Part shown: one piece after another, positions 1,709 to 22,134 of the stretch | Numbering within the stretch: the stretch's first letter is position 1 | How the letters are laid out: every line of letters starts with the position of its first letter | The notes under the pieces: generated by a model | The model's input: the letters and a program-made list of their open reading frames with translations, nothing else | The model's database searches: none | Told to the model about the DNA's origin: nothing | IMG/VR virus record: IMGVR_UViG_3300021085_000245 | Coordinates: 1-22,260 of that record | From: a virus | Strand: one strand, 5' to 3' | Length of the DNA: 22,260 nucleotides | Position numbers and translations under genes: made by a program

Positions 1709-4531
1709 TTATGCAATCTTTCTTCTTAGACTATTTAACGTGGCTTCAGCAAGATCTTCCATTGCTGGTTCCTTTGCTGGAGCTTTGTTATTTTTGTCTA
1801 AATATTTTGCAATCTTGGCTAATAATATAACATGCTCTTTCGGCAAGCTATACATTTCGCCTGAAATTTGACTTAGTAAGTTAAATACTTCGTCATTTTT
1901 ACTGTTCATTGCTAGAAAAGATAAGTGTGATACTAACTTAGCCATTGCACCATTACCACCTGAGTATTTAATTGGATCTTCATTATCAGGATGTTCTGGA
2001 TCATTTGGATCAATGTTAAGTTTGAAATCTTCCTTGTTTTTAATCATATCGTATAAACGATTCATGTTACTTTTAGTTAGATCTGTCATACTGTCTCTCT
2101 CCTTTATAATACGGGCTACTGTTTCTAAGACTGAATCCATATTTGCAGTCTCGAATGTATTATACATGAACTTGTCAGTTAAGTCAACCGATTCTTTATC
2201 ATTATCTTCTACAATCGCAGTAGTAGGTGCTTGATAGGCGTTATAACCTCTTGAAGTCTGTAGACTCTTAACTGTATTCTTAAATTCTTTTAATTTTTGT
2301 TTAATTGTTTCAACAATGTTTTCATTGCCTTCATTTGTTAATTTGTTTGTACGCACATGTCTCAAAAACTGTGTACATTGTGCTACTTCTGTACATAAAT
2401 TAACTATTGATTCACCAATTGCATCATATGGCGTTCCGCCATTGCTTACATGGTTGGCCATAGCTTTAGCGCCTTGTAAATATTTATGTGGGAATCTAAA
2501 TCTTTCTCCTGCACTGTTTTCAATAAACAATGCTTTAATGTTACGTGATCTGCTACCACGCACTTCTTCATTAACACCTTTTGTATGCTTAATAATAAGT
2601 TTAGTGTTTTCTGGTAATTGAATATAACTTGTTTTCATACTACCTGTTGCAGGTGAATAACTTTCCATTTGTGGTTTAACTGTTCCAGTTTGTGGCTTTC
2701 TAAGGTCAGTAGTGAATTTAACTCCTTTTTTACCAAACTTAACTCCGCCGTGTCTAAGAGTATCAACACCTTTTTTAACTGCATTTTTAATGCCATCCCA
2801 ACTTTCGTAATATTCTTCTTCTGATTCGCCGGCTGCCATTTCTTTACAATCTGAACATCTACCATGTCCATCATTGTAGTCCATTAATTGAGCGCCACAG
2901 CAATTACTTACTACGCCATCTTCCATTTCATCACCTGGTGAATATGATTCAGTTTCTGCTTCAAGTAATTCGCCTGATGCTAAAACATCAATTGCATGTT
3001 TGATATCTGTGTTTTCCATATCCACATGTGGTATTGCTTTTAATATAGCTTGCACTTGTGGCATACTCATAAATTCTTCATCGTCTGTATCTATTTCATC
3101 TGTAAATTCGTAATATGAACTATCAGTCATTCTATAGTTATCTGCTTGAATTTCTTTAGCATGATCAACTACATGTGACATAAATGCCTCTACTGAATTT
3201 CCACCTGCTTCGCCTAAATTATCTGGGCGTAACTTTGGCTTAGTTTTTAGAAATTTCTTACCAAGATTTGCTGGACGTAACTTTGGCTTAGTTTTAATTC
3301 CTGGGCCTGTGCCCATTTGATTTTCTGGATGTGCCATTTGGTCTCTGTGTCCTGCATTTGGGTTAACTTCAAACGATTCAACAAATACTTCTACCATGTC
3401 ATCGCCATTACGCAATGCACCTTTTTTAACTTTTACGTTTTCTTTGCCGTATTTTGCTATTGCTTCTTCTGGAGACATACTAGTTTGTTTCCAACGCTTT
3501 TCTGCTTCAGTAACTTTTTTAGATTCAGTAGTATTCAAAGCGTCTAACTCAGCATCATTTCTTTCTACTTCACCTGAATTATATGCTGACTTTGGATTAG
3601 GTTTTGCGTTTGGTGGTAGAACGTCATTGTCTACTCCATAAATAGAAGTCTTTTTGCCTTTTAACTTGGCAATAGCTTCTCTGTATAAACCTCTATAATC
3701 ATCGTTTACTGCTGTATCAAAATAAGGTTCATGTTCGCCAATATCAACGGCTTCAATCATATCGTTAACATCACGTAATTCTGATGAAATCATGTTTGGA
3801 TCCATTTCTTCATTCTCAAGATACCACTTGTGTCTTAATAATGATTTTTTCATTATTTGAAATACTGGTGAACTTGCATCTTCTTTAATACCAGATAGTT
3901 CTCTTAATCTGCGAACATCTTCATTCTTTGATTCCAATTGAGCAATCATGTCATCAAATGTCATATCGTCTTTTTTGTTCCTCAATGCGTCAACTACTAT
4001 TGCTAATGTACGTTTTGCTAATTCATCTCTGTCTCTAGTGGCTGTTGTCATTTCAATCCAAGTCCACTCATAAATCATTTGCATCACTTCGTCAACACTT
4101 TTGTCCCACATCTGCGTGTGTTCTTTCCAGAAGTCTGTGATCTCGTAATAGCCTGTAACTGCACTTGGTTGCATGTCTTTCATTGCCTTTTCAGTACGGT
4201 CGTCTTCTTTTACTACATCGTGAGCGAAGTCTTTTGGTTCAATATTCTTATCAAATTTTCTAATGCTATATTCTGCCATGGCGTTGTGTCCTGCTTGTTT
4301 AATACTATCTAATACATCTTTGTGTTTATCAAAGTTGAAACTAGCTCCTGCTTGTACAACTAGCTCAACTTCGTCCTCTTCTTCTCTAATAGTGACAAGA
4401 AAATCATTATCATATGCGTAAAATCTCGCTGATAACTCAGGATCTAGTGTTTTATTTCCCATTGGATCAAACAGTTTTAATTTAACGTTTGCACCCTTTA
4501 GGATATTAAAAATCTCATTTGATAGTTGCAT
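1709..4531 (-). CDS. Large acidic protein with zinc ribbon and prohead-protease-like sites
   Basis: This 940-aa protein has no function I can name. Residues 1-110 form a compact segment (starting MQLSNEIFNILKGANVKLKL) that I believe recurs in marine T4-like phages. R207-E217 is RRLRELSGIKE followed by D218, a module shared with the 281-aa protein at 11687-12532. Residues 415-442 hold a tandem repeat TKPKLRP(A/D)NLG, the second copy ending LGE/A. Residues 542-564 look like a small zinc ribbon (SNCCGA, then CSDCKE). SEEEYYES (570-577) recurs in the 281-aa protein. (L/I)-x-E sites followed by a small or acidic residue (217, 441, 524) resemble T4 prohead protease cleavage signals. I infer a virion-internal polyprotein-like protein; a non-structural role is possible. 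A late-type box lies 18 bases upstream and AGGAATACTATA precedes the ATG. Confidence 0.75.
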   Translation of the reverse strand: MQLSNEIFNILKGANVKLKLFDPMGNKTLDPELSARFYAYDNDFLVTIREEEDEVELVVQAGASFNFDKHKDVLDSIKQAGHNAMAEYSIRKFDKNIEPKDFAHDVVKEDDRTEKAMKDMQPSAVTGYYEITDFWKEHTQMWDKSVDEVMQMIYEWTWIEMTTATRDRDELAKRTLAIVVDALRNKKDDMTFDDMIAQLESKNEDVRRLRELSGIKEDASSPVFQIMKKSLLRHKWYLENEEMDPNMISSELRDVNDMIEAVDIGEHEPYFDTAVNDDYRGLYREAIAKLKGKKTSIYGVDNDVLPPNAKPNPKSAYNSGEVERNDAELDALNTTESKKVTEAEKRWKQTSMSPEEAIAKYGKENVKVKKGALRNGDDMVEVFVESFEVNPNAGHRDQMAHPENQMGTGPGIKTKPKLRPANLGKKFLKTKPKLRPDNLGEAGGNSVEAFMSHVVDHAKEIQADNYRMTDSSYYEFTDEIDTDDEEFMSMPQVQAILKAIPHVDMENTDIKHAIDVLASGELLEAETESYSPGDEMEDGVVSNCCGAQLMDYNDGHGRCSDCKEMAAGESEEEYYESWDGIKNAVKKGVDTLRHGGVKFGKKGVKFTTDLRKPQTGTVKPQMESYSPATGSMKTSYIQLPENTKLIIKHTKGVNEEVRGSRSRNIKALFIENSAGERFRFPHKYLQGAKAMANHVSNGGTPYDAIGESIVNLCTEVAQCTQFLRHVRTNKLTNEGNENIVETIKQKLKEFKNTVKSLQTSRGYNAYQAPTTAIVEDNDKESVDLTDKFMYNTFETANMDSVLETVARIIKERDSMTDLTKSNMNRLYDMIKNKEDFKLNIDPNDPEHPDNEDPIKYSGGNGAMAKLVSHLSFLAMNSKNDEVFNLLSQISGEMYSLPKEHVILLAKIAKYLDKNNKAPAKEPAMEDLAEATLNSLRRKIA
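3228..3295 (-). repeat. 48-base tandem repeat inside the 940-aa gene
   Basis: CGTAACTTTGGCTTAGTTTT (plus strand) occurs at 3228-3247 and again at 3276-3295, an exact 20-base match with a 48-base period. It encodes the repeated TKPKLRP(A/D)NLG. Being in frame, it looks like a recent unit duplication in a linker. Confidence 0.85.
3880..3913 (-). repeat. Dispersed DNA repeat encoding RRLRELSGIKE, copy 1
   Basis: Bases 3891-3913 are identical over 23 bases to 11889-11911, and bases 3880-3902 are identical over 23 bases to 12481-12503. All three encode versions of R-x-x-(R/K)-E-L-S-G-I-x-E. Identity at third codon positions points to recent copying or gene conversion, not just selection on the peptide. 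Confidence 0.85.
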
Positions 4532-4572: not shown

Positions 4573-5448
4573 TTACTTAAATATTACAGGTTTATAATTA
4601 TCTACTGCTTCTGAATAATCAAATGCAGTTCTCCATAACTGTCTATCTTTGTTTTTAACTGCTGATCTTCTATGACTTGTAGTTAATTGATCCATGAATA
4701 ATAAGTCGCCTTCGCGGAATACATGATGAAACATATATCTTGATTGTGTAATAACATCATATAATTTATCTTTAAATTCAGCAAAATTTTCTAATTCTGT
4801 GCCATCTTTGTACCATGCATTAAACAAATATATAAACATAGGATAAAAATATTCTCTGCCACTTACAGGGTGTTTAGCAATTAACGGTCGTCTGTCTATC
4901 TCTTCTTGGTAATGCTCTTGTCCTAATCTAAACTGATCTTCTTTACCTGCAGTTTGATATGCTTTAGAATAAACTCCATCATCTCTCCAAATTGATCGTG
5001 CAACTCCACGTGTATTATCCAAGTGAATATCTATGTTACGATAATAGTCTTTTTCTTCCTCTGGTAAGTCTTCAAACGCTTTGCACTGGTCAACTATTGA
5101 TAATACTGTATCAACACATTCTGTTTCACAATATAATCCTACACAAATTTCAGTAAAATTATATCTACCAGTACCATTTGCATGCCACTCTAGTTCAGTA
5201 GGACCAAACATACCAATAGCTTTACCGTTTTCATCAATTGCTCCTGATACAATACTAATTTGTGGACTATCTTTTGGATTCATAAAGTAATCTAGTTCTT
5301 CTACTTTACCCATTTTAGAACATGCATATGCTAATTCTTGTCTAGTTAAATTTTGATCATGTAATACTGCTGATCCATCGTTTACAATTTTATTTACTAA
5401 ATGAGCAAACTCTTCATCTGTGTATTCTAATATACTTTTATGTTTCAT
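4573..5448 (-). CDS. TauD-like 2OG/Fe(II) dioxygenase family protein with altered metal motif
   Basis: The C-terminal half is characteristic of the TauD/TfdA family, which hydroxylates or cleaves small molecules using 2OG, O2 and Fe(II): AKHPVSGREYFYP (191-203), then GDLLFMDQ (247-254), then TTSHRR (256-261, metal ligand H259) and R273 in LWRTAF for 2OG binding. At 291 aa it has the usual length. The first metal motif reads EWH89-A90-N91-G; the family has His-x-Asp/Glu, so the acidic iron ligand appears replaced by Asn. The codon is AAT on the minus strand. The protein may bind iron differently, do other chemistry, or be inactive. ATGA overlap with the upstream oxygenase-like gene and a GAGG ribosome site support the start and co-transcription. 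Its substrate cannot be told from sequence. Confidence 0.85.
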   Translation of the reverse strand: MKHKSILEYTDEEFAHLVNKIVNDGSAVLHDQNLTRQELAYACSKMGKVEELDYFMNPKDSPQISIVSGAIDENGKAIGMFGPTELEWHANGTGRYNFTEICVGLYCETECVDTVLSIVDQCKAFEDLPEEEKDYYRNIDIHLDNTRGVARSIWRDDGVYSKAYQTAGKEDQFRLGQEHYQEEIDRRPLIAKHPVSGREYFYPMFIYLFNAWYKDGTELENFAEFKDKLYDVITQSRYMFHHVFREGDLLFMDQLTTSHRRSAVKNKDRQLWRTAFDYSEAVDNYKPVIFK

Positions 5449-6185
5449 AGTTTTTCCTCAATCATATCTTTAAATGTATGTATATCTACCTCTTTTGGTA
5501 AATTTATCCACCTAGTTACCCAAGCCACTCTTGGTGCTTCCTGAACTGTAACTCTATGCATTGTGTTTGTATCTATTATTAATGGCCTATCTATTACAAA
5601 TTGAGCAATTAATCTTTCTTGTAAAAATTCTTCATAGCCTTCGTGTGTTCTGTTTTTAAATTCGTGATAGTAAAATTCGTTATGACAATTAACTTCTGGC
5701 ATTTGTACTTCATCTTCATTTGTTTGAAAATATTCAATTGTGCTTTTACCATGTACTGGTATTACTATATTAAAGTAATGTGGATGCTCTTGATCAAAAT
5801 CAAGATCTGAATGAGCATATAAATCATCTTCAGTACTTGTACTTAAATTAAATCCAGTTGAACGCTTTTGTATGTGTGGGTGAAATTCTCTGTGTGGAGC
5901 TAGTATTGGTTCAAAGTGTTCAAGATATTCAGTGTCGCCACCTTTTTTATGTTCTAGAGCAAAACTATGCCATTTTGTTTTACCAAATGAATTAAACTTT
6001 CCATCACAAAACTTGTATAATTCTTTAAGTAAATCTGTGTGCGGTTCTACATCAACATACACAGCTAAATCTTTTATACTATTTCTTGTAAATTCTTTCC
6101 ATATAGCTTCTTCTTTTATGCTATCTTTTTCAATGTCGTCTAATCCCAATCCTGCTCTACTGGTTTTTATTTTATTATCTATCAT
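5445..6185 (-). CDS. 2OG/Fe(II) oxygenase-like protein, paralogue 1
   Basis: This protein (246 aa from the chosen start) is a paralogue of the one at 8110-8808. They share HPH-x3-RSTGFN, then HSD (here) or HTD, then EFYYHEF or YYYYHEF, then MHRV...EAPR...VTRW. With this start H125-x-D127, H210 and R219 would be the Fe(II) triad and 2OG-binding Arg of a jelly-roll oxygenase. The family and substrate are unknown to me. An ATG four codons upstream (6197) also exists, but the ATG at 6185 has GGAG 6 bases upstream, whereas for the longer form that sequence lies inside the gene. It overlaps the PLP enzyme gene by 11 bases and the TauD-like gene by 4, so all three are probably translated together. 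It could instead be a non-catalytic cupin. Confidence 0.75.
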   Translation of the reverse strand: MIDNKIKTSRAGLGLDDIEKDSIKEEAIWKEFTRNSIKDLAVYVDVEPHTDLLKELYKFCDGKFNSFGKTKWHSFALEHKKGGDTEYLEHFEPILAPHREFHPHIQKRSTGFNLSTSTEDDLYAHSDLDFDQEHPHYFNIVIPVHGKSTIEYFQTNEDEVQMPEVNCHNEFYYHEFKNRTHEGYEEFLQERLIAQFVIDRPLIIDTNTMHRVTVQEAPRVAWVTRWINLPKEVDIHTFKDMIEEKL

Positions 6186-7092
6186 TTTCTTCTCCATTAC
6201 TATTTATTAAACTGGTTATACATATTCTAGCATCGTCATTCCAACGCATGCGTCTTCGTCTTCTATAAAACGAGTCTCTGGTTGTTGCTAAGAAAAAACA
6301 ATCCGATGGTTTAAAATTATATTCATTACAAATTTTTATTTGTTGTTCTCTGTGTTTTTTCCACATCTCATCCACTGCAAAATTCTTTATTATTAATTCT
6401 ATTGTTTTTACTCCACTGTAATTCCAATTTTCAAACTCTTTTAATAGTTGTAATGTTGGATGAGGTTCTTTAGTATATACTAATCCTAGACGTTGTCCTA
6501 CTAATCCAAAGCCTTTACTAAAACTAAAAAATACTTGCTCGGTATTTATTGGAACATCTATTTTTTGTATGTCAGTGGAACTAACATATGTACAGTCTAA
6601 TATAACAGGTGCTTGTATATTTCCTAAATTAAAATAATTTCCATCTGCGGCACTTGGTATACTAATGTAAAGAGGTTTGCTAGAATCAATATTTCCTGGT
6701 AACGCTGAACGCCCTGTTTCTTCGTTCATATACTGTCCTGGTACATCACAAGTAACAGATCCTTTAGAACCTATCATATCTCTATATTCATATTCACCAT
6801 AACATAATTTCTGCCATGGTCTTTTATCTGTCATTTCCCAATGATGTATGGCATCTGTTGCACCATTAACAAAATAACAATGCTTAAAATCTTTTAGATC
6901 TATAATTTCTTTAACCCATTCTCTATGAGCAGACTCAACTGCATCTAAATCACGTGTTGCTTCTCCGCTACCTCTTTTGTAATATGTATCTGATGTGCGT
7001 TGGCTTTTTAGTATGTTCATAACATCTTTGTGACAGGGCACATCTACCCATGCATTTTTTCTTAACTCTTTTTTTACTGAGTCTGATTGCAT
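6175..7092 (-). CDS. PLP-dependent fold-type-I enzyme (aminotransferase-like)
   Basis: Key motifs of the aspartate-aminotransferase fold are present: NGATDAIHHW (phosphate-binding turn), VILDCTYVSS (Asp contacting the PLP ring nitrogen, D166 from this start), then FFSFSKGFGLVGQRLG with K193 as the Schiff-base lysine, and a late Arg in DDARICITS as candidate carboxylate-binding residue. The protein is about 305 aa, shorter than typical aminotransferases (about 350-430), so the small domain is reduced. Residues just before the end contain five arginines in a row, unusual in this fold. The start is the ATG at 7092, with AGGA about 8 bases upstream and lying after the stop of the preceding gene; an ATG at 7125 would overlap that gene and lacks a site. 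Reaction unknown: transamination, decarboxylation or aldol chemistry are possible. Confidence 0.8.
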   Translation of the reverse strand: MQSDSVKKELRKNAWVDVPCHKDVMNILKSQRTSDTYYKRGSGEATRDLDAVESAHREWVKEIIDLKDFKHCYFVNGATDAIHHWEMTDKRPWQKLCYGEYEYRDMIGSKGSVTCDVPGQYMNEETGRSALPGNIDSSKPLYISIPSAADGNYFNLGNIQAPVILDCTYVSSTDIQKIDVPINTEQVFFSFSKGFGLVGQRLGLVYTKEPHPTLQLLKEFENWNYSGVKTIELIIKNFAVDEMWKKHREQQIKICNEYNFKPSDCFFLATTRDSFYRRRRRMRWNDDARICITSLINSNGEENDR

Positions 7093-7096
7093 TATT

Positions 7097-7564
7097 CTAT
7101 TTCCTAAAATATGTTTTTTCATCAAATGATTTATTTAAACCAAACACAACTAAATCACCTACTCCTTGTATATCATGCATAAATTCTGTATGATATAAAC
7201 ACATAGCATTTTTATTATTAAGAATACGAGATTCTAGTACTTCTTTGGTTTCTTTATCATGCATAGTAACGGTTAATTCTCCTCGAGGACAAAAGAACAC
7301 AACTGCATTTTCAATAGATCCAGTATCTACATGAGGGCCTAAATCATCAACAAATCCCTCATAGTAATCCCATACACCCATATATTCTATAGGACCAACA
7401 TATTCTTCTATTGCATTTCTTAGATCAAGTGTTTCTTTAGAGAATGTTTCTCTCTCATAAATTGCCCACCATTTTTCATTATTTTCTTTATTTGCATCAA
7501 GGAATGGTACTAGATTATATTGATCTACGTCCATGTCCCATGTACGACACCAGTTATATGTCAT
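7097..7564 (-). CDS. Small cupin/2OG-oxygenase-like protein, family B copy 1
   Basis: The protein of 155 aa carries GPH78-V-D80-TG and later FMH130-DIQGVGDLVVFGL, the His-x-Asp...His spacing of double-stranded beta-helix iron enzymes. Its C-terminal half aligns by eye with the 189-aa neighbour upstream: (P)H-x-D, then a strand with L-x-(V/L)-x-(M/L)-H, then H-(D/S)-x-(Q/E)-G-x-GDL-(V/I)-VF. No clear 2OG-binding Arg is obvious. GAGGAG about 8 bases upstream supports the start, and the gene overlaps the previous one by 11 bases. Membership of the cassette suggests it acts on the same substrate; it may equally be a non-enzymatic cupin. Confidence 0.65.
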   Translation of the reverse strand: MTYNWCRTWDMDVDQYNLVPFLDANKENNEKWWAIYERETFSKETLDLRNAIEEYVGPIEYMGVWDYYEGFVDDLGPHVDTGSIENAVVFFCPRGELTVTMHDKETKEVLESRILNNKNAMCLYHTEFMHDIQGVGDLVVFGLNKSFDEKTYFRK

Positions 7565-8123
7565 TAAAATACTCCTCTATGTTTAATTGTTTACTAGTTG
7601 TAAACACTATAAGATCACCTTGACCTTCTACTGAATGTGGAAATACAGTATTGTTTAATGCAACTAGTTTAGTATCATCTATATTTATTGTATTTATTAT
7701 AGGTGAATCAGCCTTATCTTCTTCATGTAAATGTAATTTAAAACTGCCAGATATACATGTAACTATAGAACCTGTATGTTCTCCGCCAACATCTATGTGT
7801 ACTGGACAATGTTTAAAGTTTTCATCATACCTCCATATAGCAAGAACAGGCGGGTTGTCTTCTAATTGTGACTTAGTAATATGTGTTACTAGCTCTCTAA
7901 CATTAGATAGTTTATCATTTGCTCCACCATCATCTAATCTTACTCTATTACTTCCAGTAGCCACAGCTTCATTTGATCCTAAAGGTGGAATAACCCACAT
8001 CTTAGAATCTACCACAGACTTATAAGTATTAAAGGGTTCGTAATCATATGTTTTAGTATAACGGTCAGCAACCAACTTTAGGTTTTCTGGCATACTAACT
8101 TTAAATTCTTTAGCCCAGATCAT
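7554..8123 (-). CDS. Small cupin/2OG-oxygenase-like protein, family B copy 2
   Basis: The protein is 189 aa. CPVH109-I-D111 and VFPH163-SVEGQGDLIVF are the candidate metal ligands, matching H78/D80 and H130 of the 155-aa paralogue. The N-terminal 90 residues differ between the two, so only the beta-helix core is shared. The gene overlaps both neighbours by 11-14 bases. Its ribosome site is weak (GAGAG about 10 bases upstream), consistent with translational coupling. A 12-base palindrome GAGAGTACTCTC lies over this start region. Confidence 0.65.
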   Translation of the reverse strand: MIWAKEFKVSMPENLKLVADRYTKTYDYEPFNTYKSVVDSKMWVIPPLGSNEAVATGSNRVRLDDGGANDKLSNVRELVTHITKSQLEDNPPVLAIWRYDENFKHCPVHIDVGGEHTGSIVTCISGSFKLHLHEEDKADSPIINTINIDDTKLVALNNTVFPHSVEGQGDLIVFTTSKQLNIEEYFNDI

Positions 8124-8808
8124 TGAGAGTACTCTCTACTTTGTTTTTAAATGTTTGAAAATCTGATAACTCTGGTGGAATATTAACCCACCTTGTTACA
8201 AACGCACACCTAGGTGCTTCTGTAATAACAACTCTATGCATTATTTCTGTATCAATAAAACATGGCTTATCAATTATAATTTCACCTATTTTTCTATCTG
8301 CAAGGAACTTTTCATATTCAGGAGATCCTTGTCCCATTTTTGCTTGAGCTTTAAATTCGTGATAGTAATAATATCCTTGAGCATTATGTTCTGGAAGAAA
8401 TACTTCATCTGGATTAGTTTCATAATAATCTAATCTACTGCTACCAAACACAGGATAGATAATATTATACCCTTGACTATATTTTTGATTTTGGTCAATA
8501 TCAGTATGTGGGAACACATCTTTCTCTGTAGTATTTGCCGTATTAAATCCTGTTGACCTAAATTGATAATGTGGATGAACTTTTCTATGTTGAGAAAGAA
8601 TTGGATCAAACACTTCTTCATATCCTGTTAATAAACTTTCTCTGCCTTCTTTGGGATATGCATATTCTAGAGAATAACTCTCAAATGGTGTTTTTCCAAA
8701 TACATTAAAATCTTCTCCAGGCAAACTACCTTTTACTTTTTTATATAACTCAAGTAAAAGGTCTATTTGTGGATTAACATCTAAATATTCAGCAATGTTA
8801 GGTATCAT
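8110..8808 (-). CDS. 2OG/Fe(II) oxygenase-like protein, paralogue 2
   Basis: This 232-aa paralogue of the protein at 5445-6185 has H101-T-D103, H191 in IMHRV and R200 in EAPRCAFVTRW as candidate iron ligands and 2OG-binding Arg. The shared segments cover most of the length, starting with (E/N)P(H/Q)-x-DLL-x-ELY near the N-terminus; it lacks about 40 leading residues of the other copy. Divergence is substantial, so duplication is old or the two were acquired separately. The start has AAGG about 9 bases upstream and overlaps the peroxiredoxin gene by 11 bases. Confidence 0.75.
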   Translation of the reverse strand: MIPNIAEYLDVNPQIDLLLELYKKVKGSLPGEDFNVFGKTPFESYSLEYAYPKEGRESLLTGYEEVFDPILSQHRKVHPHYQFRSTGFNTANTTEKDVFPHTDIDQNQKYSQGYNIIYPVFGSSRLDYYETNPDEVFLPEHNAQGYYYYHEFKAQAKMGQGSPEYEKFLADRKIGEIIIDKPCFIDTEIMHRVVITEAPRCAFVTRWVNIPPELSDFQTFKNKVESTLNDLG

Positions 8809-9211
8809 TTAATGCGCCTTCCACAAACGGATCTTTAAATTCTTTAACAAATTCTCCATCTTGTAAAAGTATCGCAAAACGCTTACAACGGATTCCCATT
8901 GTTTCGCCATAGTCTACATCTTTACCAATGCTTTTGCTAAAAACTGCTAACGGGTCTGCAACGGCATCAATGTCTTTATGTCCATGTAAGTTATTCCATG
9001 CATCCATTACGCTAGGATCATTTACTCCAACAAAAACAACTTTACAACCTAATTTTTCTAAATTATTTGCATAACCTGGCAAATGTTTGTTTGTACAACC
9101 AGATGTAAATGCACCCGGTACTCCACACACAATAACTTTACCTTGTGGTATTTCATATGGTTTATAATCATTATCTTTAAATATGTATAAACCTTTATTA
9201 TTAATTTCCAT
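8798..9211 (-). CDS. Peroxiredoxin, Prx5-like
   Basis: The family reduces H2O2 and organic peroxides through a peroxidatic Cys. The active-site loop is VPGAFTSGCTNKHLPGY, with T36 and C39 matching PGAFTPxC of Prx5-type enzymes. GCKVVFVGVNDPSVMDAW (55-72) and the later Arg residues in MGIRCKRFAILLQDG fit the same group. At 137 aa it is slightly shorter than cellular Prx5 (about 160). C56 and C109 are extra cysteines, either of which could serve in recycling. No export signal is visible, so it should act in the host cytoplasm. It is the first gene of the oxygenase cassette, preceded by AAGGAG, 19 bases after gp17. It may protect iron-dependent oxygenases or the infected cell from peroxide. Confidence 0.88.
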   Translation of the reverse strand: MEINNKGLYIFKDNDYKPYEIPQGKVIVCGVPGAFTSGCTNKHLPGYANNLEKLGCKVVFVGVNDPSVMDAWNNLHGHKDIDAVADPLAVFSKSIGKDVDYGETMGIRCKRFAILLQDGEFVKEFKDPFVEGALNDT

Positions 9212-9230: not shown

Positions 9231-10787
9231 TTATATTAAACTAAATGGCATTGGTTCCATACCATCATTGTCATCAAAATCTTCATTTAAATATTCAAAT
9301 GCATCTTCTTCGTATTTTGATACTTCTAAACTCATACGCACAATTAAGTTAAGCGCCATTACAAGATCATCATTTTCTCCATCTTTGGCTGCATAACTAT
9401 TACCACGTGCAATAAATGTTTTTAATTCTCTTAGCAATGGCTTACTTGCTACTTCTAATTTCTCTGTTTCAACCCAGTATTTTAGTTTACTACATGCATT
9501 TATTTTTGCTTTGTGTGTAGTTGTAAAGCCTCGTCTATAGCGTTTGGCATTTCCATGTTGTCTTGTTTCACTTAAAAACGTACCTGGAAAATTTTCTTCT
9601 CCAGTTTCTTCTACAACAACTAATGCTGCCTCACCAAGTGTATTGTTTTCCATACTGTAATATATTTCGCAATCACCTTGTGTTTCACTTTCTATAAACT
9701 GTGCTATTTCTCGCAAAATTTTTATCTGCCCTTGAACTGTTGTTCTATTGTGCATCCATTCTGCTACTTGTTTCATGCCTGGCATTTGATAAACTTGAAT
9801 AGCACTGTTATCTCCACCTGTACCTAAACTAGGATCTAATCCTATCATATATAATTTACCCTTAGCAACTGGTGTGTACCAACGTACTTGTCCTGATATA
9901 GCGTATGGATCCCGAGCTTCCATGTTACTTAGTTTAATACTATCAATAAGTGTTTCGTCAAACGCAATAAATTCACATTTGTGTTCACGCCTAAATCTTT
10001 CTTCACCAATTTTACCTTGTTCAACATCTGCCCATTCTTGATCTCTATCTGGATGTACTTCCCATGTAGCAAGATAATGTGCAAATCCATTAATACCTTC
10101 ATTTGTTTCATTACCAAATTCGTCTTGATTCTTTTGTGCATCTCTCCAAATTTGTGCAAATTGATCATCGTCCATATTTGGTGTTGATGTAATAATACAT
10201 TTACCACCTGTTGCTAATGTAGGTGAAAGTGAAGTCCAAAACTCTTTGGCTATGTTTGGTCTAACAAATGCAAACTCGTCTAAGTATGCTAACGATATAG
10301 ACAAACCACGTCCAGTATTTTCTGTTGTACTCTGTGCTACAATACGAGAACCGTTATCAAATTCCAACGATCCTTTGTTATATGCAGTAACACCAGCTCT
10401 AATAAAATCAGGTAGTGTTTCGTATGCAAAACGTATACGTTGCATAATTTCACTAGCACCTGAATATTTGTGTGCCGCTATAAGAATAGTTTGATCTGGA
10501 TTAAACATTGCATACCATAACAAATAACCTGCCGCACAGGTACTTTTACCTGTTTGTCGTGCAAGCATACTAATACTGTATCTGTTATTATGATATGTAT
10601 CAACTAGCTCTTCTTGGAAATCATATAGTGCAAACTTCATACGACCTTGTGTAGGATGCTGAATATAACAGTGTTCCTTCATAAAGTGTTTAGGATCTTG
10701 TGAACATAGTGCAAGTTCTAACAACTGCTCTTCAGTGTATTTTTCTTTTCTATATGGGGTTTTAGTTAATTTTGTATCTACTGCCAT
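9231..10787 (-). CDS. 17: gp17 large terminase subunit
   Basis: The motor packages DNA into proheads and cuts the concatemer. The ATPase domain has a Walker A LARQTGKST (75-83, K81) of the divergent form used by T4 gp17, Walker B LAYLDEF (D170, E171) and the coupling motif TSTPN (200-204). The nuclease domain follows, with GLDPS (D318), SMENN (E380) and NDDLVMAL (D473/D474) as the acidic triad equivalent to T4 D401, E458 and D542. At 518 aa it is shorter than T4 gp17 (610), mostly at the ends. TATAAATA lies 18 bases upstream. It is unusual that gp16 lies about 3.8 kb away, on the other side of four genes. Confidence 0.96.
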   Translation of the reverse strand: MAVDTKLTKTPYRKEKYTEEQLLELALCSQDPKHFMKEHCYIQHPTQGRMKFALYDFQEELVDTYHNNRYSISMLARQTGKSTCAAGYLLWYAMFNPDQTILIAAHKYSGASEIMQRIRFAYETLPDFIRAGVTAYNKGSLEFDNGSRIVAQSTTENTGRGLSISLAYLDEFAFVRPNIAKEFWTSLSPTLATGGKCIITSTPNMDDDQFAQIWRDAQKNQDEFGNETNEGINGFAHYLATWEVHPDRDQEWADVEQGKIGEERFRREHKCEFIAFDETLIDSIKLSNMEARDPYAISGQVRWYTPVAKGKLYMIGLDPSLGTGGDNSAIQVYQMPGMKQVAEWMHNRTTVQGQIKILREIAQFIESETQGDCEIYYSMENNTLGEAALVVVEETGEENFPGTFLSETRQHGNAKRYRRGFTTTHKAKINACSKLKYWVETEKLEVASKPLLRELKTFIARGNSYAAKDGENDDLVMALNLIVRMSLEVSKYEEDAFEYLNEDFDDNDGMEPMPFSLI

Positions 10788-10805: not shown

Positions 10806-10813
10806 TATTTATA
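10806..10813 (-). promoter_or_regulatory. T4-type late promoter TATAAATA ahead of gp17
   Basis: An exact TATAAATA on the minus strand, 18 bases before the gp17 ATG, in a 45-base gap. A second partial box, CATAAATA, lies slightly farther upstream in the same gap. The cassette 9211-4573 has no separate strong promoter I can see, so this is its likely source of transcription. Confidence 0.75.
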
Positions 10814-10832
10814 CATTACTATTTATGTATAG

Positions 10833-11534
10833 TTATAACTGCCCAAATGCCCATTTACGTTCTTGACACCACCAGCATTCGCCACAATGCTCATCTTTTG
10901 GATCAGTAAGTAATTCTCCATTAACTTCAAATCCTTCGTGCCATTCACAACTTCTTGTATGTGTAAACAAGGTATCTGTTAAATCAAAGTGCTTATACAA
11001 GTGTGCTATCATGCGTTTATCTACATTTATAAAAGGAACCCAAGTTGTAGTATCGTTATTATCATACATTACTGGTCTCCCATGTCCTGGATCACGTGGT
11101 TTATAACTTTCTAAACTAAATGCATCTCTAACTTCAAGTGGTGGGTTTTGTGTAGTTCCATGTAAAATAAATGTTATTCCAGATAAATCTTTTTGTATTT
11201 GTTCTGCTTCAGTAATCTCAGATCTAATCTGATCTGTACTATAAAATGTGTAATGATTTTTAATTAATGTTGTGCCTGTATCCTGGAGTACTTTGTTGAG
11301 TACCCTAGTACTCCAGGTAGCATTATACCAGCCCTTAATAGGATTAGCTGATGTTATAACATATATTTCAGCTTCTGGTATATGTTTTTCACAGTATTGT
11401 ATTAGCATCCATAATAGTATGGCACTATCTGCACCACCCGAGATGTTAATACAAATCTTTTTATGAGGGTCAGGAATTATAAATTCGATAGTTTGACCAA
11501 AACTATCTGTATACGTTTCTAATGGTCTTTCCAT
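10833..11534 (-). CDS. PP-loop ATP pyrophosphatase, QueC-like
   Basis: NISGGADSAIL (30-40) is the PP-loop that activates substrates by adenylation. HGTTQNPP (125-132) and PFINVDKRMIAHLYKHF (167-183) fit the QueC/ExsB architecture. The end has C196 in TRSCEW plus HCGECWWCQERKWAF (C217, C220, C223), the four-Cys zinc site seen in QueC. QueC makes 7-cyano-7-deazaguanine, a precursor used by some phages to modify DNA guanines. The other steps (QueD, QueE, GTP cyclohydrolase, a transglycosylase) are absent from the window. Residues 133-165 seem family-specific, so another adenylation reaction is possible. At 233 aa the length fits QueC. A strong terminator lies upstream; a weak sigma-like or late-like promoter in 11540-11620 is possible but not convincing. 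Confidence 0.78.
   Translation of the reverse strand: MERPLETYTDSFGQTIEFIIPDPHKKICINISGGADSAILLWMLIQYCEKHIPEAEIYVITSANPIKGWYNATWSTRVLNKVLQDTGTTLIKNHYTFYSTDQIRSEITEAEQIQKDLSGITFILHGTTQNPPLEVRDAFSLESYKPRDPGHGRPVMYDNNDTTTWVPFINVDKRMIAHLYKHFDLTDTLFTHTRSCEWHEGFEVNGELLTDPKDEHCGECWWCQERKWAFGQL
11282..11317. repeat. Perfect 11-base inverted repeat inside the PP-loop gene
   Basis: CCTGGAGTACT (11282-11292) is the exact reverse complement of AGTACTCCAGG (11307-11317), with a 14-base loop that contains another GAGTAC. In frame it encodes part of TWSTRVLNKVLQDTG. The mRNA could fold strongly here, in the middle of a gene. Confidence 0.8.
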
Positions 11535-12532: not shown

Positions 12533-14067
12533 TACTTTTCCCCTTTAGATTTCTTATATGCTTCTTTAATATCTTCAACTTTATGTTCTTTTAAGCCTAC
12601 TTTCATATCTTCTGCATCTAAGTATCTTTTTAAACTTAGGTTAACGCTTTGTGCAAAATTCTCGTATGGTTCACCATGTGATGTAGCTTCCTCTTCTGCT
12701 GCACCGTCTGGTGTGTTTGCCCATTCGTCTAATTTTGTTTTAATTTTTTCTTCGCTTAAACCTGCGTTCTTAAGTAATGTAATTAGTTGTGTAGTATCCA
12801 TTGTAGGAGCTTCTGAAATTTCTTCAGTTGGAGCACCCATTTTTGCTTGACGAATTAACATCTGTAATCCTTCTTGGTCCATAGTTTTCTCTACTTCATC
12901 ACCTGAATAGTTGTCTTGTGTGTCATCCATAGCACCCATTTCTGCTTTGTGTTCTTTGCCATTTTCGTCTTTAACGATATATGTATATTCGCCTACTTTT
13001 TTATATGACAATGGTCCGCCTTCTGGTGTTACCCAATTAGCATCAGAGGCATCAGGGATATTAAATGGGTCGCCACCAAGTTTTTCTAACTTGTTATATA
13101 GTGCCGTCATTTCACTTCCACGTTCAATAGCCATTGCCTTGTTAGGGTCATCATTTGCTCTGGCTTCATCTGCCATTTTGTCTAATTTTTGAATTCGTGC
13201 TATAACTTTTTCTTTATCGTTAGGAACATTAAGTTCATTAATGTTTTCTTCACCTATGTTGCCTGCAAGTTTTTTTAGTCTTGCTAATTCTGGATCACCT
13301 ACTTCTGGATTACCAATTTTCGTCCAACCTTCTTGGTCTGCCAGTTCGTCATCAAAATCAGCAAAATTTATGCCACTTCCAGGATCAAAATATGTAAATT
13401 CGCTTGCTGGAACCATGTGTGTAAACTTGTGAAGTTCGTCTTTGTCACAATATCCAAAAGCACCTGTGTCAATATTAATACATGCATATTCAGGAACATC
13501 GCCTTCAGTTACTGCTTCTTCAGATTCTACTTTGTATTTTTTGCCGTCAACTTCAAATTCTTTTTTACCGTCTTTTTTAGCTTGTGCTAATGCGCCTGAG
13601 AATTCATTGCCTTCATTTGGAGCTTCTTCTAATGAATCTGGAACACCGTTACCGTCTTTGTCAACCCACCAGTCACCTTTTTCATCATGTGAATCATGTG
13701 AACAATCTGTAGTTGGGCTGTGCATTGTGTCGCCACAGTCTTTACATTTATAGTCTGACGCTTTTAAATATGCTTCATCCATGTCACCATTCATATCATT
13801 GTGTCTACGGAAGTCTGCTACGAAATCTTTAATTGTATCGCCATCTAAATAACGAATTAATTCGTCAAGTACTGGATGATCTGAATCACATCCTAGTTCA
13901 TCGCATAAATCTAAAATTGGATCTGCAAATTCGCCAACTGCTTCTCTTGTTGTAGTTGGTTCTTCAACTACTGGTACGTCTTTTAATTCTCTTTCTGCTG
14001 GAGCCTGGCTGCGAGCATCTGCTGTGCCGTGGCTAGCAAGTTTTAGTATTCTGTCTAAATCACTCAT
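12532..14067 (-). CDS. Large acidic protein with EF-hand-like loop and Cys cluster, unknown function
   Basis: The protein is 511 aa and strongly acidic. The first residues, MSDLDRILKLASHG, resemble the short helical modules of its neighbours, and LARLKKLAGNIGEE (261-274) is a divergent module with I-G-E/E. Other possible (L/I)-x-E/A sites are SLEEA (145-149) and ISEA (417-420). A Cys/His cluster sits at KCKDCGDTMH...CSHDSH (107-127). It is followed by DKDGNGVPDSLE (136-147), whose positions 1, 3, 5, 9 and 12 match a calcium-binding EF-hand loop. The C-terminal 90 residues look helical. It overlaps the 164-aa gene by 8 bases and the 281-aa gene by 1; AAAGGGG precedes the latter start. I infer a processed virion component, with moderate support. 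Confidence 0.7.
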   Translation of the reverse strand: MSDLDRILKLASHGTADARSQAPAERELKDVPVVEEPTTTREAVGEFADPILDLCDELGCDSDHPVLDELIRYLDGDTIKDFVADFRRHNDMNGDMDEAYLKASDYKCKDCGDTMHSPTTDCSHDSHDEKGDWWVDKDGNGVPDSLEEAPNEGNEFSGALAQAKKDGKKEFEVDGKKYKVESEEAVTEGDVPEYACINIDTGAFGYCDKDELHKFTHMVPASEFTYFDPGSGINFADFDDELADQEGWTKIGNPEVGDPELARLKKLAGNIGEENINELNVPNDKEKVIARIQKLDKMADEARANDDPNKAMAIERGSEMTALYNKLEKLGGDPFNIPDASDANWVTPEGGPLSYKKVGEYTYIVKDENGKEHKAEMGAMDDTQDNYSGDEVEKTMDQEGLQMLIRQAKMGAPTEEISEAPTMDTTQLITLLKNAGLSEEKIKTKLDEWANTPDGAAEEEATSHGEPYENFAQSVNLSLKRYLDAEDMKVGLKEHKVEDIKEAYKKSKGEK

Positions 14068-14554
14068 CGCCTTTTTCCTTTTGTTTTTTTACTTTCATTA
14101 ATTCTTTAATGAAACTGGAGTTATACTCGTCACCGTAATGATCTCCTGCATTTACTTTTTCTGCATCTTTATATTCACCATCTGCTAACAGGCTTTCAGC
14201 ACGCTCACCCATAGGAGGGATTAAATCATCTGGTTCGTGTTCGCCTATAACTTTAAGTACACCGTCTGTTAGTCCAAGCATGTTACGAATATCATTTTGT
14301 ACTTGCCAACCGCTGGCAATAATGTTAGTTTCGAATTCATGTGTAAAGACTTCATATCCTTTGTGATTTGGAAAATCACGTGGTGCACTTTGTAAGATTG
14401 TTTTCTTTGCAGCACCGAGTCCTTTAGAGTCGTATTTTCCGAGGTGCTTCTCTATGCGATCACACTGTTCATCAGTTAAATCATGTATTGTTTTAATACT
14501 AAACTTCCACGATTTTTTTGATTCGTTTAAGTATGTTGAAAATGTTTTGTTCAT
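14060..14554 (-). CDS. Small protein with N-terminal capsid-targeting-like peptide
   Basis: The protein is 164 aa and starts MNKTFSTYLNE followed by S12. T4 internal proteins begin with short targeting peptides of this kind, an amphipathic stretch ending in (L/I)-x-E, cut by prohead protease. Here L9-N10-E11/S12 fits that rule. The mature part starts KKSWKFSIKTIHDLTDEQ and ends in a basic tail KELMKVKKQKEKG. No catalytic motif is recognised. The start is set by TAGGAG about 9 bases upstream. A late-type box overlaps the gp16 stop codon upstream, so the 164, 511 and 281-aa genes probably form a late unit ending at the terminator at 11622-11653. Confidence 0.72.
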   Translation of the reverse strand: MNKTFSTYLNESKKSWKFSIKTIHDLTDEQCDRIEKHLGKYDSKGLGAAKKTILQSAPRDFPNHKGYEVFTHEFETNIIASGWQVQNDIRNMLGLTDGVLKVIGEHEPDDLIPPMGERAESLLADGEYKDAEKVNAGDHYGDEYNSSFIKELMKVKKQKEKGDE

Positions 14555-14575
14555 TGCGGTTATCTCCTATTAATA

Positions 14576-15112
14576 CTATTTATCTTTTTCGGGCAAGTTT
14601 TTCATTATTTCGGCAAGCATAGCAGTTCTATCTCCTACTATACGCCCTTCTACTTCTTCTTCATCGCCCAATTCGTGCTTTTTGCCGGCTACATATGCAT
14701 CTATCTTCTCACTGTCTTTTTCAAGTCTAGCTTGACGCATTTGTAACTCAATCATTTTCATTTTCTTATCCATTTTGGCTTGTTTTGCCTGTAGAGCTGC
14801 GGATATCATTTTGCTTGCACTATCAAATATAGGTGCTGCATGTCTATCTTCTACATTCTTACCCAAGTCTATTAAATCTTCAAATGTTTCCATGGCTTTT
14901 TTTGCATATTCGTCCATTTCTCTATCTAACTGTTCTAAACCCTCAACAGTAGGCAATGCAATATTGGCACGTTCTACCATGCTCATTTCGCCTTCTATGT
15001 TTGCTATTTCTGTTTTAAGTTCTTCAGTAGTAGGTTCTTCCTGTATATCATTTTCAGGAAGTAATTGATCTAAATCTGGTAAATTTAATTCTTCTTCTAA
15101 TTTTTTTGTCAT
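14576..15112 (-). CDS. 16: gp16 small terminase subunit
   Basis: The small subunit recognises DNA and regulates gp17. After a variable acidic N-terminus of about 50 residues, the core is LDREMDEYAKKAMETFEDL, then DLGKNVEDRHAAPIFDSA, then AKQAKMDKKMKMIELQMRQA, which matches the coiled-coil oligomerisation region of T4 gp16 (T4 has DELAELATKTYEDLMDLGM and related segments). At 178 aa the length agrees with T4 gp16 (164). The start overlaps the gp4 stop as ATGA. The last codons GAT AAA TAG double as a late promoter box for the next gene. Confidence 0.85.
   Translation of the reverse strand: MTKKLEEELNLPDLDQLLPENDIQEEPTTEELKTEIANIEGEMSMVERANIALPTVEGLEQLDREMDEYAKKAMETFEDLIDLGKNVEDRHAAPIFDSASKMISAALQAKQAKMDKKMKMIELQMRQARLEKDSEKIDAYVAGKKHELGDEEEVEGRIVGDRTAMLAEIMKNLPEKDK
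14577..14584 (-). promoter_or_regulatory. Late-type box GATAAATA embedded in the gp16 stop codon
   Basis: The minus-strand sequence GATAAATA covers the last sense codons and stop of gp16 (GAT AAA TAG). It is 22 bases before the start of the 164-aa gene. Confidence 0.6.
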
Positions 15113-15555
15113 TTTCTTTTCTTTTTAGAGTTTTGAGGTTTATTAAATATCTGATGTTCAGTTATAACCCTAAACGCCATTCCTTGTTGTTTGCACCATG
15201 CATGTGCGGCAGACCATTTGGCTTGATTAACTACTGCTGCAGCCTTCTGAGCAGTTGTTCTTGCTTCAGCTAATGTTTGACTAGCTGGCTTAATCTCTAC
15301 CATTTCAGCATGGTTCTTTCCCTTCTTGTCTTTGTATACTAATAACAAGTCAGGAACATATGTGCTTTTCTTTCCAGTAAGTGGATTTTTGTATGGGATT
15401 CTGTGTGTTTCACTTCCCCAACCTAATATAGCTGGGTGATTATCGCACATGCGAAATACTGCTAATTCCCATCCACTTCTGTAATGTGGTGTTCTTTTAC
15501 CTAAGTATTTATCCGGGTTAGAAGGTATGAATTTTCCGTTTTGGAACTTCGGCAT
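15109..15555 (-). CDS. 4: gp4 head completion protein (nuclease-like fold)
   Basis: The 148-aa protein matches T4 gp4 (also called gp50/65), which finishes filled heads before tail joining. The recognisable core is YRSGWELAVFRMCDNHPAIL (25-44) with GWGSETHRIPY next. E30, D69 in YVPDLLLVYKD and E87-I-K89 in VEIKP form a PD-(D/E)xK-type nuclease arrangement. The end is basic (SKKKRK). The start codon follows the stop of the gp54-like gene without a gap, so translation is probably coupled. Confidence 0.88.
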   Translation of the reverse strand: MPKFQNGKFIPSNPDKYLGKRTPHYRSGWELAVFRMCDNHPAILGWGSETHRIPYKNPLTGKKSTYVPDLLLVYKDKKGKNHAEMVEIKPASQTLAEARTTAQKAAAVVNQAKWSAAHAWCKQQGMAFRVITEHQIFNKPQNSKKKRK

Positions 15556-16563
15556 TTATAATTCGCCTAATGTGTCTGGATCTGTATCTGTATAGTGAAT
15601 TTCTGATTCGGGTACTTGTGCTATATATCTAACACCGTCTTTTGTAACAATTTGATTTTTACCAGGAGCAAATTCAGTATCGCCTGCAAGTTGTCCACCT
15701 GCTACAATCTCATTTGCTCTTGCAAGTCTCTCTGACATATTCCCCCACACTCCCTGAACAGTTCCTCTAAAACTGCTAGTAGTGGTACTAGTAACCACTG
15801 CTTGATTATTGGTTTCAAGAACTGGTTGAATTTCTGGTTTATTTGATTTTATTTCTGGATGTCTTGTTGTGTGTATTGCAGATTGATCAACAAAGGTGTT
15901 TACTTCTGGTTGGATCGTTGGTGGATTTAATATACTAGGAGGAGCGAGACCAACAGGAATATTCATTGCTTCACTTAATATTCTGAATCCTTCATAACCA
16001 AATGTAATTCTGTATGTACTAGGCGCACTATCTGAATAGTCTAATGTATCAGCATCTATGTTTTGTATAAACGGATGAAATATTTCTGTTACATTTGAAT
16101 GTGTAACTGTATCGCCTACTGTTGCATCAACTCTTGTAATAATCATTGATGTTATATAATGATTATCGTCTGGTGTTTTTAAACCAAAGCTATTTTTTAC
16201 TGAACTATTAATCTTCCATTCTTCATAATCAGCTTGATTCATTGGACCTGTAATATAGTGGTTAGCATATTCCTTTAGAAACTTTTCAAATTCAGCATCT
16301 TTAGTGTCGTATGCTGTAAGTGTTATAGGAGTATAATCTATTCCTGTTTGAACTATGCTTTTACTATTATAATTATTAAGTGTTTGTGTTCTATATGTGA
16401 AAGTTGGTAACTGTACATTTGCAATTCGCGTAAGATCTACAACACCACCACCTGCTATGATTAACTTAACTGTAAAGGAAAACTTATTCCTAGGTATTGC
16501 AGTTAATGTACCCTTGGTGAGTGCTTGACCATATTTTACATACGCTGTATCGCCTAATGCCAT
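15556..16563 (-). CDS. 54: Tail tube-fold protein, gp54-like baseplate-tail tube initiator
   Basis: The protein is 335 aa (T4 gp54: 320), and in T4 gp54 starts polymerisation of the gp19 tube on the baseplate. Its N-terminal half shares features with the gp19 gene upstream: LPTFTYRTQTLNNYNSKSIV then YTPITLTAYD, compared with SYNSKMYLAG then WEPVTIVFRDD in gp19. This indicates a common tube fold. The C-terminal third, Pro/Gln/Thr-rich from about 206 on, has no recognised motif. Location after gp18-gp19 fits a tail role. It could be a different gp19 paralogue. AAGGAC lies about 9 bases before the ATG. Confidence 0.65.
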   Translation of the reverse strand: MALGDTAYVKYGQALTKGTLTAIPRNKFSFTVKLIIAGGGVVDLTRIANVQLPTFTYRTQTLNNYNSKSIVQTGIDYTPITLTAYDTKDAEFEKFLKEYANHYITGPMNQADYEEWKINSSVKNSFGLKTPDDNHYITSMIITRVDATVGDTVTHSNVTEIFHPFIQNIDADTLDYSDSAPSTYRITFGYEGFRILSEAMNIPVGLAPPSILNPPTIQPEVNTFVDQSAIHTTRHPEIKSNKPEIQPVLETNNQAVVTSTTTSSFRGTVQGVWGNMSERLARANEIVAGGQLAGDTEFAPGKNQIVTKDGVRYIAQVPESEIHYTDTDPDTLGEL

Positions 16564-16600
16564 TTGATGTGTCCTTTACTAGCAATTAACTTAAAGTTAA

Positions 16601-17221
16601 TTAAGAGCCAGTTCCGCCACCAGTAACAGTTTCGTCTGCAGCGCCTAAAGTGCCTGCCGATAATGCATCGCCTGTACCATCCAAGATGTGTGCGGCATGA
16701 TCGTAACGTACTGTTAATGTAACTTGAACCATATTTGAATCTGCGTAGTTTAAGTCGCCATATTGTACTTGACTAATAAAGCAACCTTCTAATTGCCATT
16801 CATCAAATGTAGTTGGTTTAGTTGCACCATTTTGTCCATCTAGTGTTTCAATTTTTACACCAAATTTATATGATCCACCTGCAATTGCACTTGATTGATC
16901 TGCGTGATCAACTTGTTTGTTTAATTGCTTACCAAGTTGTTTAATAACATTTGAATTCATGTCATCACGGAACACAATTGTTACTGGTTCCCATGTATGC
17001 TTACCTGCTAGGTACATTTTTGAGTTGTATGAATCAACTACAACTTCTTCGTGTGTTAAGTTTGGTCGTGATGCACTAACAACGTTTTGCGTCATTTCTG
17101 ATTTTTCGCCACCATCACCTATGTTAGTGAATGATACTCGGAATCTATATTGTAGCTTTGGCATTAATGTCGTGCCTGCCGCTGATGTTGTTGGTACTCC
17201 AAAATTTGTAATTACAGCCAT
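16601..17221 (-). CDS. 19: gp19 tail tube protein
   Basis: Subunit of the inner tail tube. The protein is 206 aa, with MPKLQYRFRVSF near residue 20, then SYNSKMYLAGKHTWEPVTIV and a C-terminal VQYGDLNYADSNMVQVTLTV, the order expected for T4-like gp19 (163 aa). The extra length is a Gly/Thr-rich tail (GAADETVTGGGTGS). It follows gp18 after a terminator and has its own late-type box, allowing expression at a different level from sheath. TAGGAG precedes the ATG. Confidence 0.9.
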   Translation of the reverse strand: MAVITNFGVPTTSAAGTTLMPKLQYRFRVSFTNIGDGGEKSEMTQNVVSASRPNLTHEEVVVDSYNSKMYLAGKHTWEPVTIVFRDDMNSNVIKQLGKQLNKQVDHADQSSAIAGGSYKFGVKIETLDGQNGATKPTTFDEWQLEGCFISQVQYGDLNYADSNMVQVTLTVRYDHAAHILDGTGDALSAGTLGAADETVTGGGTGS

Positions 17222-17266
17222 TTGTTTTCTCCTATAATACTATACTGTAGTATTTCTCTTATATTG

Positions 17267-17274
17267 TATTTATC
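17267..17274 (-). promoter_or_regulatory. Late-type box GATAAATA ahead of gp19
   Basis: GATAAATA on the minus strand, 46 bases before the gp19 start and downstream of the terminator at 17321-17344. Confidence 0.6.
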
Positions 17275-17320
17275 AAAACATTGGTCAAAAACTACAATAT
17301 TTAAAATTTGTCACATTAAA

Positions 17321-17344
17321 GGCTACTATATTTCTATAGTAGCC
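17321..17344 (-). terminator. Terminator between gp18 and gp19
   Basis: A perfect 10-bp stem, GGCTACTATA and TATAGTAGCC, encloses a GAAA tetraloop on the minus strand (GNRA type) and is followed by TTTAAT. It is 29 bases after the gp18 stop. The U-run is short, so termination is probably partial. Confidence 0.78.
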
Positions 17345-17372
17345 CTTATTTTAATTAAATTAAACTTTTAAC

Positions 17373-19796: not shown

Positions 19797-19843
19797 GTTA
19801 AGCTCCTTTTTTAATAGGCTATTGCCTAAATTTACTATACATG

Positions 19844-19851
19844 TATTTATT
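19844..19851 (-). promoter_or_regulatory. Late-type box AATAAATA ahead of gp18
   Basis: AATAAATA on the minus strand, 48 bases before the gp18 start in the 90-base gap after the hydroxylase-like gene. It is one of two candidate boxes for gp18. Confidence 0.5.
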
Positions 19852-19886
19852 TAGATTTGTTTAAATCAGGGGTTTACAGAGTTAAC

Positions 19887-22099: not shown

Positions 22100-22126
22100 A
22101 ATATAATCCCTTAAAGTAATTAATTA

Positions 22127-22134
22127 TATTTATC
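22127..22134 (-). promoter_or_regulatory. Late-type box GATAAATA overlapping the preceding stop codon
   Basis: GATAAATA on the minus strand contains the TAA stop of the partial upstream gene (GGA TAA) and lies 27 bases before the 487-aa gene. Confidence 0.6.

Follow-up and report, generated by a model that had tools for sequence, protein, structure and literature searches.

Organization of the cassette and its enzymes

The window analyzed here is a whole virus record of 22,260 bp with structural genes of the T4 type. Behind gp17, which encodes the terminase large subunit (9231-10787, minus strand; tblastn matches to 2571 phage records), it carries a cassette of seven overlapping ORFs, all on the minus strand and in the order given in a preliminary description of this DNA: Prx, A′, B′, B, PLP, A, and TauD1, from position 9211 down to 4573. 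A 940-aa ORF (1709-4531) flanks the other side. Prx starts 19 nt past the gp17 stop codon, and the overlaps within the cassette span 4-26 nt, a range that depends on the choice of start codons. Prx and A′ share 11 nt, A′ and B′ 14 nt, B′ and B 11 nt, and A and TauD1 4 nt. Read from the ATG at 7122, PLP encodes 315 aa and overlaps B by 26 nt; if the ATG at 7092, which is preceded by AGGAAA, is the start, the protein has 305 aa and a 4-nt gap separates the two genes. The overlap of PLP with A is 23 nt, or 11 nt from an internal ATG at 6185.

An exact match to the T4-type late box, TATAAATA (10806-10813, minus strand), is a candidate promoter element for gp17 and the cassette, both downstream of it, with 19 nt between it and gp17; in the window as a whole, this octamer occurs no more often than by chance (2 copies vs. 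3.0 expected). Promoter-like sites in the window do not exceed chance expectation either (34 vs. 40.7), and internal cassette promoters were therefore rejected, as the preliminary description had also held. Probably, gp17 and the cassette are co-transcribed, which would place cassette expression late and together with gp17. Elsewhere in the window, a QueC-like PP-loop protein with a C-terminal cysteine motif adjoins gp17 (10833-11534, minus strand), and its relatives occur in radical-SAM gene clusters next to fuller oxygenase clusters (L020, L022). A second Asp_Arg_Hydrox-family protein (9e-10; 19887-20654, minus strand) is encoded between gp18 and the contig end, where it overlaps the gene for a 487-aa protein without family match (20636-22099, minus strand).

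The first cassette gene, Prx (8798-9211), encodes a Prx5/redoxin-type peroxiredoxin of 137 aa (PF08534, 2e-15; 57.3 bits vs. a Pfam cut-off of 26.6), whose peroxidatic Cys39 and Arg are invariant in 16 homologues, as in Prx5-like enzymes. PLP (6175-7122) encodes a divergent class-I aminotransferase-like enzyme, which scores below the Pfam cut-off for Aminotran_1_2 (PF00155, 13.5 vs. 19.7 bits; 18.3 bits for its homologue in Pelagibacter phage Mosig) and is also weakly matched in a profile search of solved structures. It carries the class-I aminotransferase lysine signature SFSKGFGLVGQRLG (SxSK…R), with K203 present in 38 of 39 homologues. R299, kept in as many, sits where class-I aminotransferases have the Arg that binds the carboxylate. 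Given this type of lysine signature, assignment as an alpha-oxoamine synthase (cf. AlaS reported from related phages) was set aside, and neither Pfam nor NCBIfam returned a match to the BesB-type PLP family. One homologue, located in a short B′-B-PLP-TauD1 cassette (L131:11077-11940), has Arg in place of the catalytic lysine (DFTRGFG).

Four further genes, A′ (8110-8808; 232 aa), B′ (7554-8123; 189 aa), B (7097-7564; 155 aa), and A (5445-6197; 250 aa), encode proteins without meaningful match in Pfam, PHROG, or NCBIfam, and A and B show no meaningful sequence relatives among solved structures. They form two paralogue pairs, as previously described: A and A′ share 47% identity, and B and B′ 27% over 94 aa (E=5e-12). 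Treating A and B as a single family was rejected, since no profile match connects them; the A profile does align with the Asp/Asn-hydroxylase of the larger cluster described below, with the ligands in register. Across 34 A-family proteins, the HxD…H residues are invariant (H101, D103, and H191 in A′), as is an Arg nine residues past the distal His (R200). HxD…H is likewise invariant across 18 B-family proteins (H109, D111, and H163 in B′); this family has no conserved Arg, and K178, present in 16 of 18, marks a candidate position for the basic residue binding 2OG. The AlphaFold model of A′ (pLDDT 88) matches JMJD5 and ALKBH2 (E about 1e-4 to 2e-4), and that of B′ (pLDDT 81) matches ALKBH2, AlkB, and a prolyl hydroxylase (ALKBH2/AlkB E 3e-6 to 3e-5). 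TM-scores are moderate, mostly 0.34-0.58, and thus support an Fe/2OG fold without indicating a substrate. Sequence and models together predict A and A′ to be Fe/2OG oxygenases, with HxD…H and a 2OG-binding Arg on a double-stranded beta-helix, and B and B′ to carry HxD…H on the same fold. The iron sites, whose absence would have spoken against the preliminary description, are hence present in all four proteins.

The AlkB-type resemblance of B′ brings to mind DNA or tRNA hypermodification, in which the oxygenases and the PLP enzyme would decorate nucleobases against host nucleases. Other phages hypermodify bases using PLP enzymes and GNATs, and the QueC-like gene adjoins gp17. We consider this reading very improbable, however, given that the set has no base-specific kinase or thymidylate-hydroxymethylase partner, that the membrane fatty-acid desaturase of fuller clusters fits poorly, and that the QueC-like gene is outside the core.

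The iron site of the cluster TauD proteins

TauD1 (4573-5448; 291 aa) belongs to the TauD/TfdA dioxygenases (PF02668, 6e-22; 79.2 bits vs. a cut-off of 27), with which it shares the distal His and Arg. The earlier TauD-like assignment thus stands, but it missed a replacement that bears on the chemistry. While TauD enzymes bind iron via HxD…H, TauD1 has HxN at this position (WHANG), and so does its cluster relative TauD2 (WHSNG), with distal His and Arg kept. The Asn is found in 20/20 aligned TauD1 proteins, forms an invariant column in 17 aligned TauD2 proteins, and occupies the site in 106 of 109 readable in-cluster phage TauDs; the remaining three are TauD3 proteins with HTD. TauD1, TauD2, and most TauD3 proteins therefore lack the HxD…H triad. 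A tree containing long branches and rooted at the midpoint places the HxN sequences together on one side of a branch whose support is 99/99. Among 30 PF02668 proteins from the bacterial phylum of the cellular cluster described below, HxN occurs in just two, both belonging to that cluster; HxD prevails in the others, HxE is found in a few, and for two the site could not be aligned. Outside the cluster, N is present in four out of five lone TauD1 proteins, the fifth having HGD. Lone TauD1-type genes of this sort (L234, L235, L238, L239, L242, L243, L249) include one kind with HxD (WHGDG), the others having HxN, and are possible intermediates in the change from D to N.

In the alignments, this replacement is the new point of the cluster TauDs and a sharply defined departure from the 2-His-1-carboxylate rule. 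It points to a changed iron site and hints at unusual chemistry, although HxN alone does not tell the type of reaction. We know of no characterized HxN TauD enzyme, and a search of open-licence papers returned none. The Fe/2OG halogenases SyrB2, WelO5, and BesD have Gly or Ala at the third iron-ligand position. In the beta-ethynylserine pathway, a PLP enzyme, BesB, is reportedly paired with the carboxylate-free Fe/2OG enzyme BesD on an amino acid. The cluster TauDs might accordingly be read as part of a halogenase-type route, with the HxN enzyme putting chloride or bromide on a substrate that the PLP enzyme would eliminate or cyclize. Like the halogenases, they lack Asp or Glu at the third ligand, a feature near-invariant in the cluster, and the pairing with a PLP enzyme recalls BesD/BesB. 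TauD1 carries Asn rather than the Gly or Ala of halogenases, and this Asn may itself bind iron. Moreover, human AspH, a natural 2OG enzyme without carboxylate ligand, hydroxylates and does not halogenate (PMC13168262), and we therefore hold the halogenase route to be improbable. AspH in turn differs from the HxN TauDs in that its iron site consists of two His and water, in that it acts on protein domains, and in that it is outside the TauD family.

A bolder, and in our judgment doubtful, proposal would be that the HxN TauDs form an unrecognized Fe/2OG subfamily whose iron site lacks a carboxylate and which catalyzes reactions other than hydroxylation, such as halide or pseudohalide transfer, desaturation, or cyclization. 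Together with the PLP enzyme, they might enable marine T4-like phages, including a SAR11 phage, to produce a dedicated small molecule while infecting their hosts, which would amount to a phage-encoded natural-product pathway.

Modular clusters in phages and bacteria

The seven genes represent a cut-down form of a larger modular cluster, which the preliminary description did not see when it treated them as a unit; an oxidative set with a PLP enzyme, as it proposed, is what they form. Viral loci were collected in scans that started from PLP and went on to profiles of PLP, A, B, TauD, and Prx; they number more than 200, many being overlapping pieces of shared contigs. After merging near-identical loci, the cluster was found in about 30 dereplicated phage loci, commonly in the order desaturase, PLP, TauD1, FMN reductase, Prx, A, TauD2, methyltransferase, GNAT, and AspH, with many rearrangements. 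The fuller form adds a fatty-acid desaturase, more TauDs, an FMN reductase, a methyltransferase, a GNAT, an Asp/Asn-hydroxylase, and an SDR. In 32 dereplicated PLP-selected loci, A, TauD2, FMN reductase, and methyltransferase are each present in 29, AspH in 28, desaturase in 27, Prx in 22, TauD1 in 20, and B in 9. With the reservation that the family scans overlap in their contigs and that some of the loci are short, 47 of the 53 loci retrieved by family A alone carry PLP and 47 carry Prx, and PLP is present in 67/79 TauD loci and 43/60 Prx loci; gp17, in comparison, is present in just 2 of 58 PLP loci. Co-occurrence of the cassette genes, proposed earlier as a check, is therefore far above chance, so that this condition, like that of the iron sites, did not refute the preliminary description.

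The module is located at differing genome positions in different phages, and four kinds of gene fusion join its parts (TauD1-MT, FMN-MT, MT-F1none, and SDR-F6ox). GNAT (13 loci) and F1none (16 loci) are mutually exclusive (Fisher p=3e-6, uncorrected for relatedness), as if they were two solutions to one step. Profile comparison did not support F1none as a divergent GNAT (probability 0.2%), leaving the mutual exclusivity alone. No credible acyl carrier protein (ACP) was found in the phages, where a single match with E=0.004 was discounted. A 121-kb contig with a near-identical cassette (G001) has no desaturase, FMN reductase, cluster-type AspH, or GNAT, and in its 120 kb the lone methyltransferase is of generic type; a location of the missing cluster genes elsewhere in the genome was rejected on this basis.

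Concerning gene history, the preliminary description had suggested a block duplication of an oxygenase set around PLP, which the trees do not bear out. B′ and B fall into separate old clades, and the tandem B′B pair recurs in several lineages; A′ is placed within the mainstream A clade, and A on a separate old branch. Local duplication was therefore rejected, and on these trees A/A′ and B/B′ are old paralogues. In comparison to the closest relative, six of the genes have dN/dS ratios of 0.04-0.30, while TauD1 is without amino-acid change; for Prx, A, and TauD1, which show very few substitutions, the ratios are weak. These values suggest purifying selection on the cassette, which we count in favor of a pathway. 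The window is 99.6-99.9% identical to the 121-kb contig over 1-12825 and about 70-89% over 12826-22260, with a sharp break, and in comparison to locus L004, dS is 0.45 for PLP and 0.02 for Prx, A, and TauD1. Recombination evidently reshuffles the cassette region.

Counterparts also exist in bacteria. A profile scan for HxN TauDs in 84,980 species, which relies on peptide patterns and can miss distant relatives, gave two loci, one on a short contig of phage-like character and one on a 118-kb Bacteriovoracaceae contig. The Bacteriovoracaceae contig encodes PLP, two desaturases, AspH, TauD2, TauD3, FMN reductase, A, methyltransferase, and F1none, as well as four B relatives, radical-SAM enzymes, and an ACP adjoining PLP. 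Four of the 291 genomes of its phylum match; besides the first cluster, those of two more of these genomes were read, and they are located on contigs of 350-505 kb with ordinary bacterial genes. HxN TauDs, desaturases, and AspH-type proteins occur in all three bacterial clusters, PLP in two, and the ACP in one; peroxiredoxin was not seen in the three. These loci (L155, L156, L157) encode multiple desaturases and several HxN TauDs alongside radical-SAM/SPASM proteins and membrane proteins of HTTM-like appearance, and apparently represent a bacterial gene cluster without prior description. Genes resembling Rha-type phage regulators lie nearby on the first contig, and the Bacteriovoracaceae cluster may therefore sit on a mobile island. 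Given its counterparts on bacterial contigs, function of the cluster needs no virion.

This last point bears on the possibility that the enzymes modify a macromolecule, either a virion protein (e.g. tail fibre residues) or a surface glycan or LPS, and thereby alter adsorption or superinfection. A search of 50,697 phage records found relatives of PLP, A, and TauD1 in Pelagibacter phage Mosig only, where they lie in such a cluster. Beside this cluster is a divergent operon (L026:10991-21306) with radical-SAM, DegT-type aminotransferase, nitroreductase, carbamoyltransferase, and methyltransferase genes. The position of the Mosig cluster between tail-fibre genes and this operon would suit macromolecule modification, as would the JMJD5, prolyl-hydroxylase, and AspH folds, which include protein hydroxylases, and the LPS O-chain genes often carried by pelagimyophages (PMC7029224). 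On the other hand, bacterial chromosomes have the same set without adjoining phage structural genes, the core set is devoid of a glycosyltransferase, and PLP enzymes, desaturases, and TauDs typically act on small molecules or lipids. Modification of a macromolecule is thus a tentative alternative, which we rate as unlikely and still ahead of the other readings that we weigh against a pathway.

A proposed tailoring pathway and its relation to known systems

We propose, with a probability of about one half, that phages carry in this cassette a pared-down version of a modular pathway for biosynthetic tailoring, which probably acts on a small amino-acid-type substrate, possibly acylated in fuller versions. 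The PLP enzyme and the HxN TauD would be the core pair, transforming an alpha-amino (or alpha-keto) acid, with further oxidations by the A and B oxygenases, which would use O2 and 2-oxoglutarate at a standard HxD…H iron site. Prx might clear peroxide from uncoupled turnover or handle a peroxide intermediate. In fuller versions, the membrane desaturase, FMN reductase, methyltransferase, and GNAT would tailor the product, with desaturase, GNAT, and methyltransferase acting on an acyl or methyl part. Here, it is the small-molecule substrate, the order of the steps, and the roles of Prx and PLP that we infer. Both the oxidative theme and the amino-acid-type substrate were anticipated in the preliminary description, and the data support the cassette as an oxidative enzyme set. 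An acyl link, which the ACP and the desaturases render plausible, concerns the full form alone; since the cassette version in the window has no desaturase, GNAT, methyltransferase, or FMN reductase, and the 121-kb contig none of these beyond the generic methyltransferase, the link to lipids is indirect. Against a pathway count the sub-threshold Pfam score of PLP, the locus that has lost the PLP lysine yet keeps B′-B-PLP-TauD1, and the search for a substrate-activating or product-defining enzyme (ligase, NRPS, or thioesterase), which identified none.

Alternatively, the cassette could serve auxiliary metabolism by diverting host catabolism of amino acids, amines, or sulfonates to phage production. 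TauD-family and aminotransferase-like genes are common in catabolism, and SAR11-type hosts live on small organic compounds. Yet, the HxN TauDs are unlike catabolic HxD enzymes, up to six oxygenases plus methyltransferase, GNAT, and desaturase exceed the needs of catabolism, and a transporter or dehydrogenase core was not seen in the set. We therefore find this explanation rather unlikely.

While phage metabolic genes have mostly been described singly, the tailoring pathway proposed here would involve a multi-enzyme module that is shuffled and nevertheless kept together in dozens of phage lineages. Its retention, together with the counterparts that a few bacterial chromosomes carry, implies a dedicated oxidative pathway that some phages operate in the cells they infect. 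Among open-licence papers, nothing relevant was found on this gene set or on phage 2OG halogenases, in line with the earlier statement that no phage system of this composition had been described.

Of the known systems, BesB/BesD has a PLP enzyme of a different family, a lysine halogenase with HxG instead of HxN, and no gene set in common with the cassette, so that the cassette does not contain a pair of this type. The bacterial clusters resemble the cassette in their HxN TauDs, and the first of them (Bacteriovoracaceae MAG JAFMBV010000002.1) also has relatives of A, B, FMN reductase, methyltransferase, and F1none; they differ from it, together with those of two genomes of the same phylum, by extra radical-SAM enzymes and desaturases, by the ACP of the first, and in that peroxiredoxin was not seen. 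The cluster of Mosig EXVC030M (MT647606.1, 54701-60954) shares with the cassette the PLP enzyme (33% identity), the A family (46%), the peroxiredoxin, an HxN TauD, and the arrangement in one operon. In contrast to the cassette, it has a desaturase, an FMN reductase, a methyltransferase, a GNAT, and two Asp_Arg_Hydrox proteins, and is without B/B′ and TauD1. This cluster has been annotated gene by gene and was not presented as a pathway (PMC7892664). Given that Mosig and Pelagibacter ubique HTCC1062 are a cultured phage-host pair and that the phage carries the fuller form, the product can be searched for by metabolomics.
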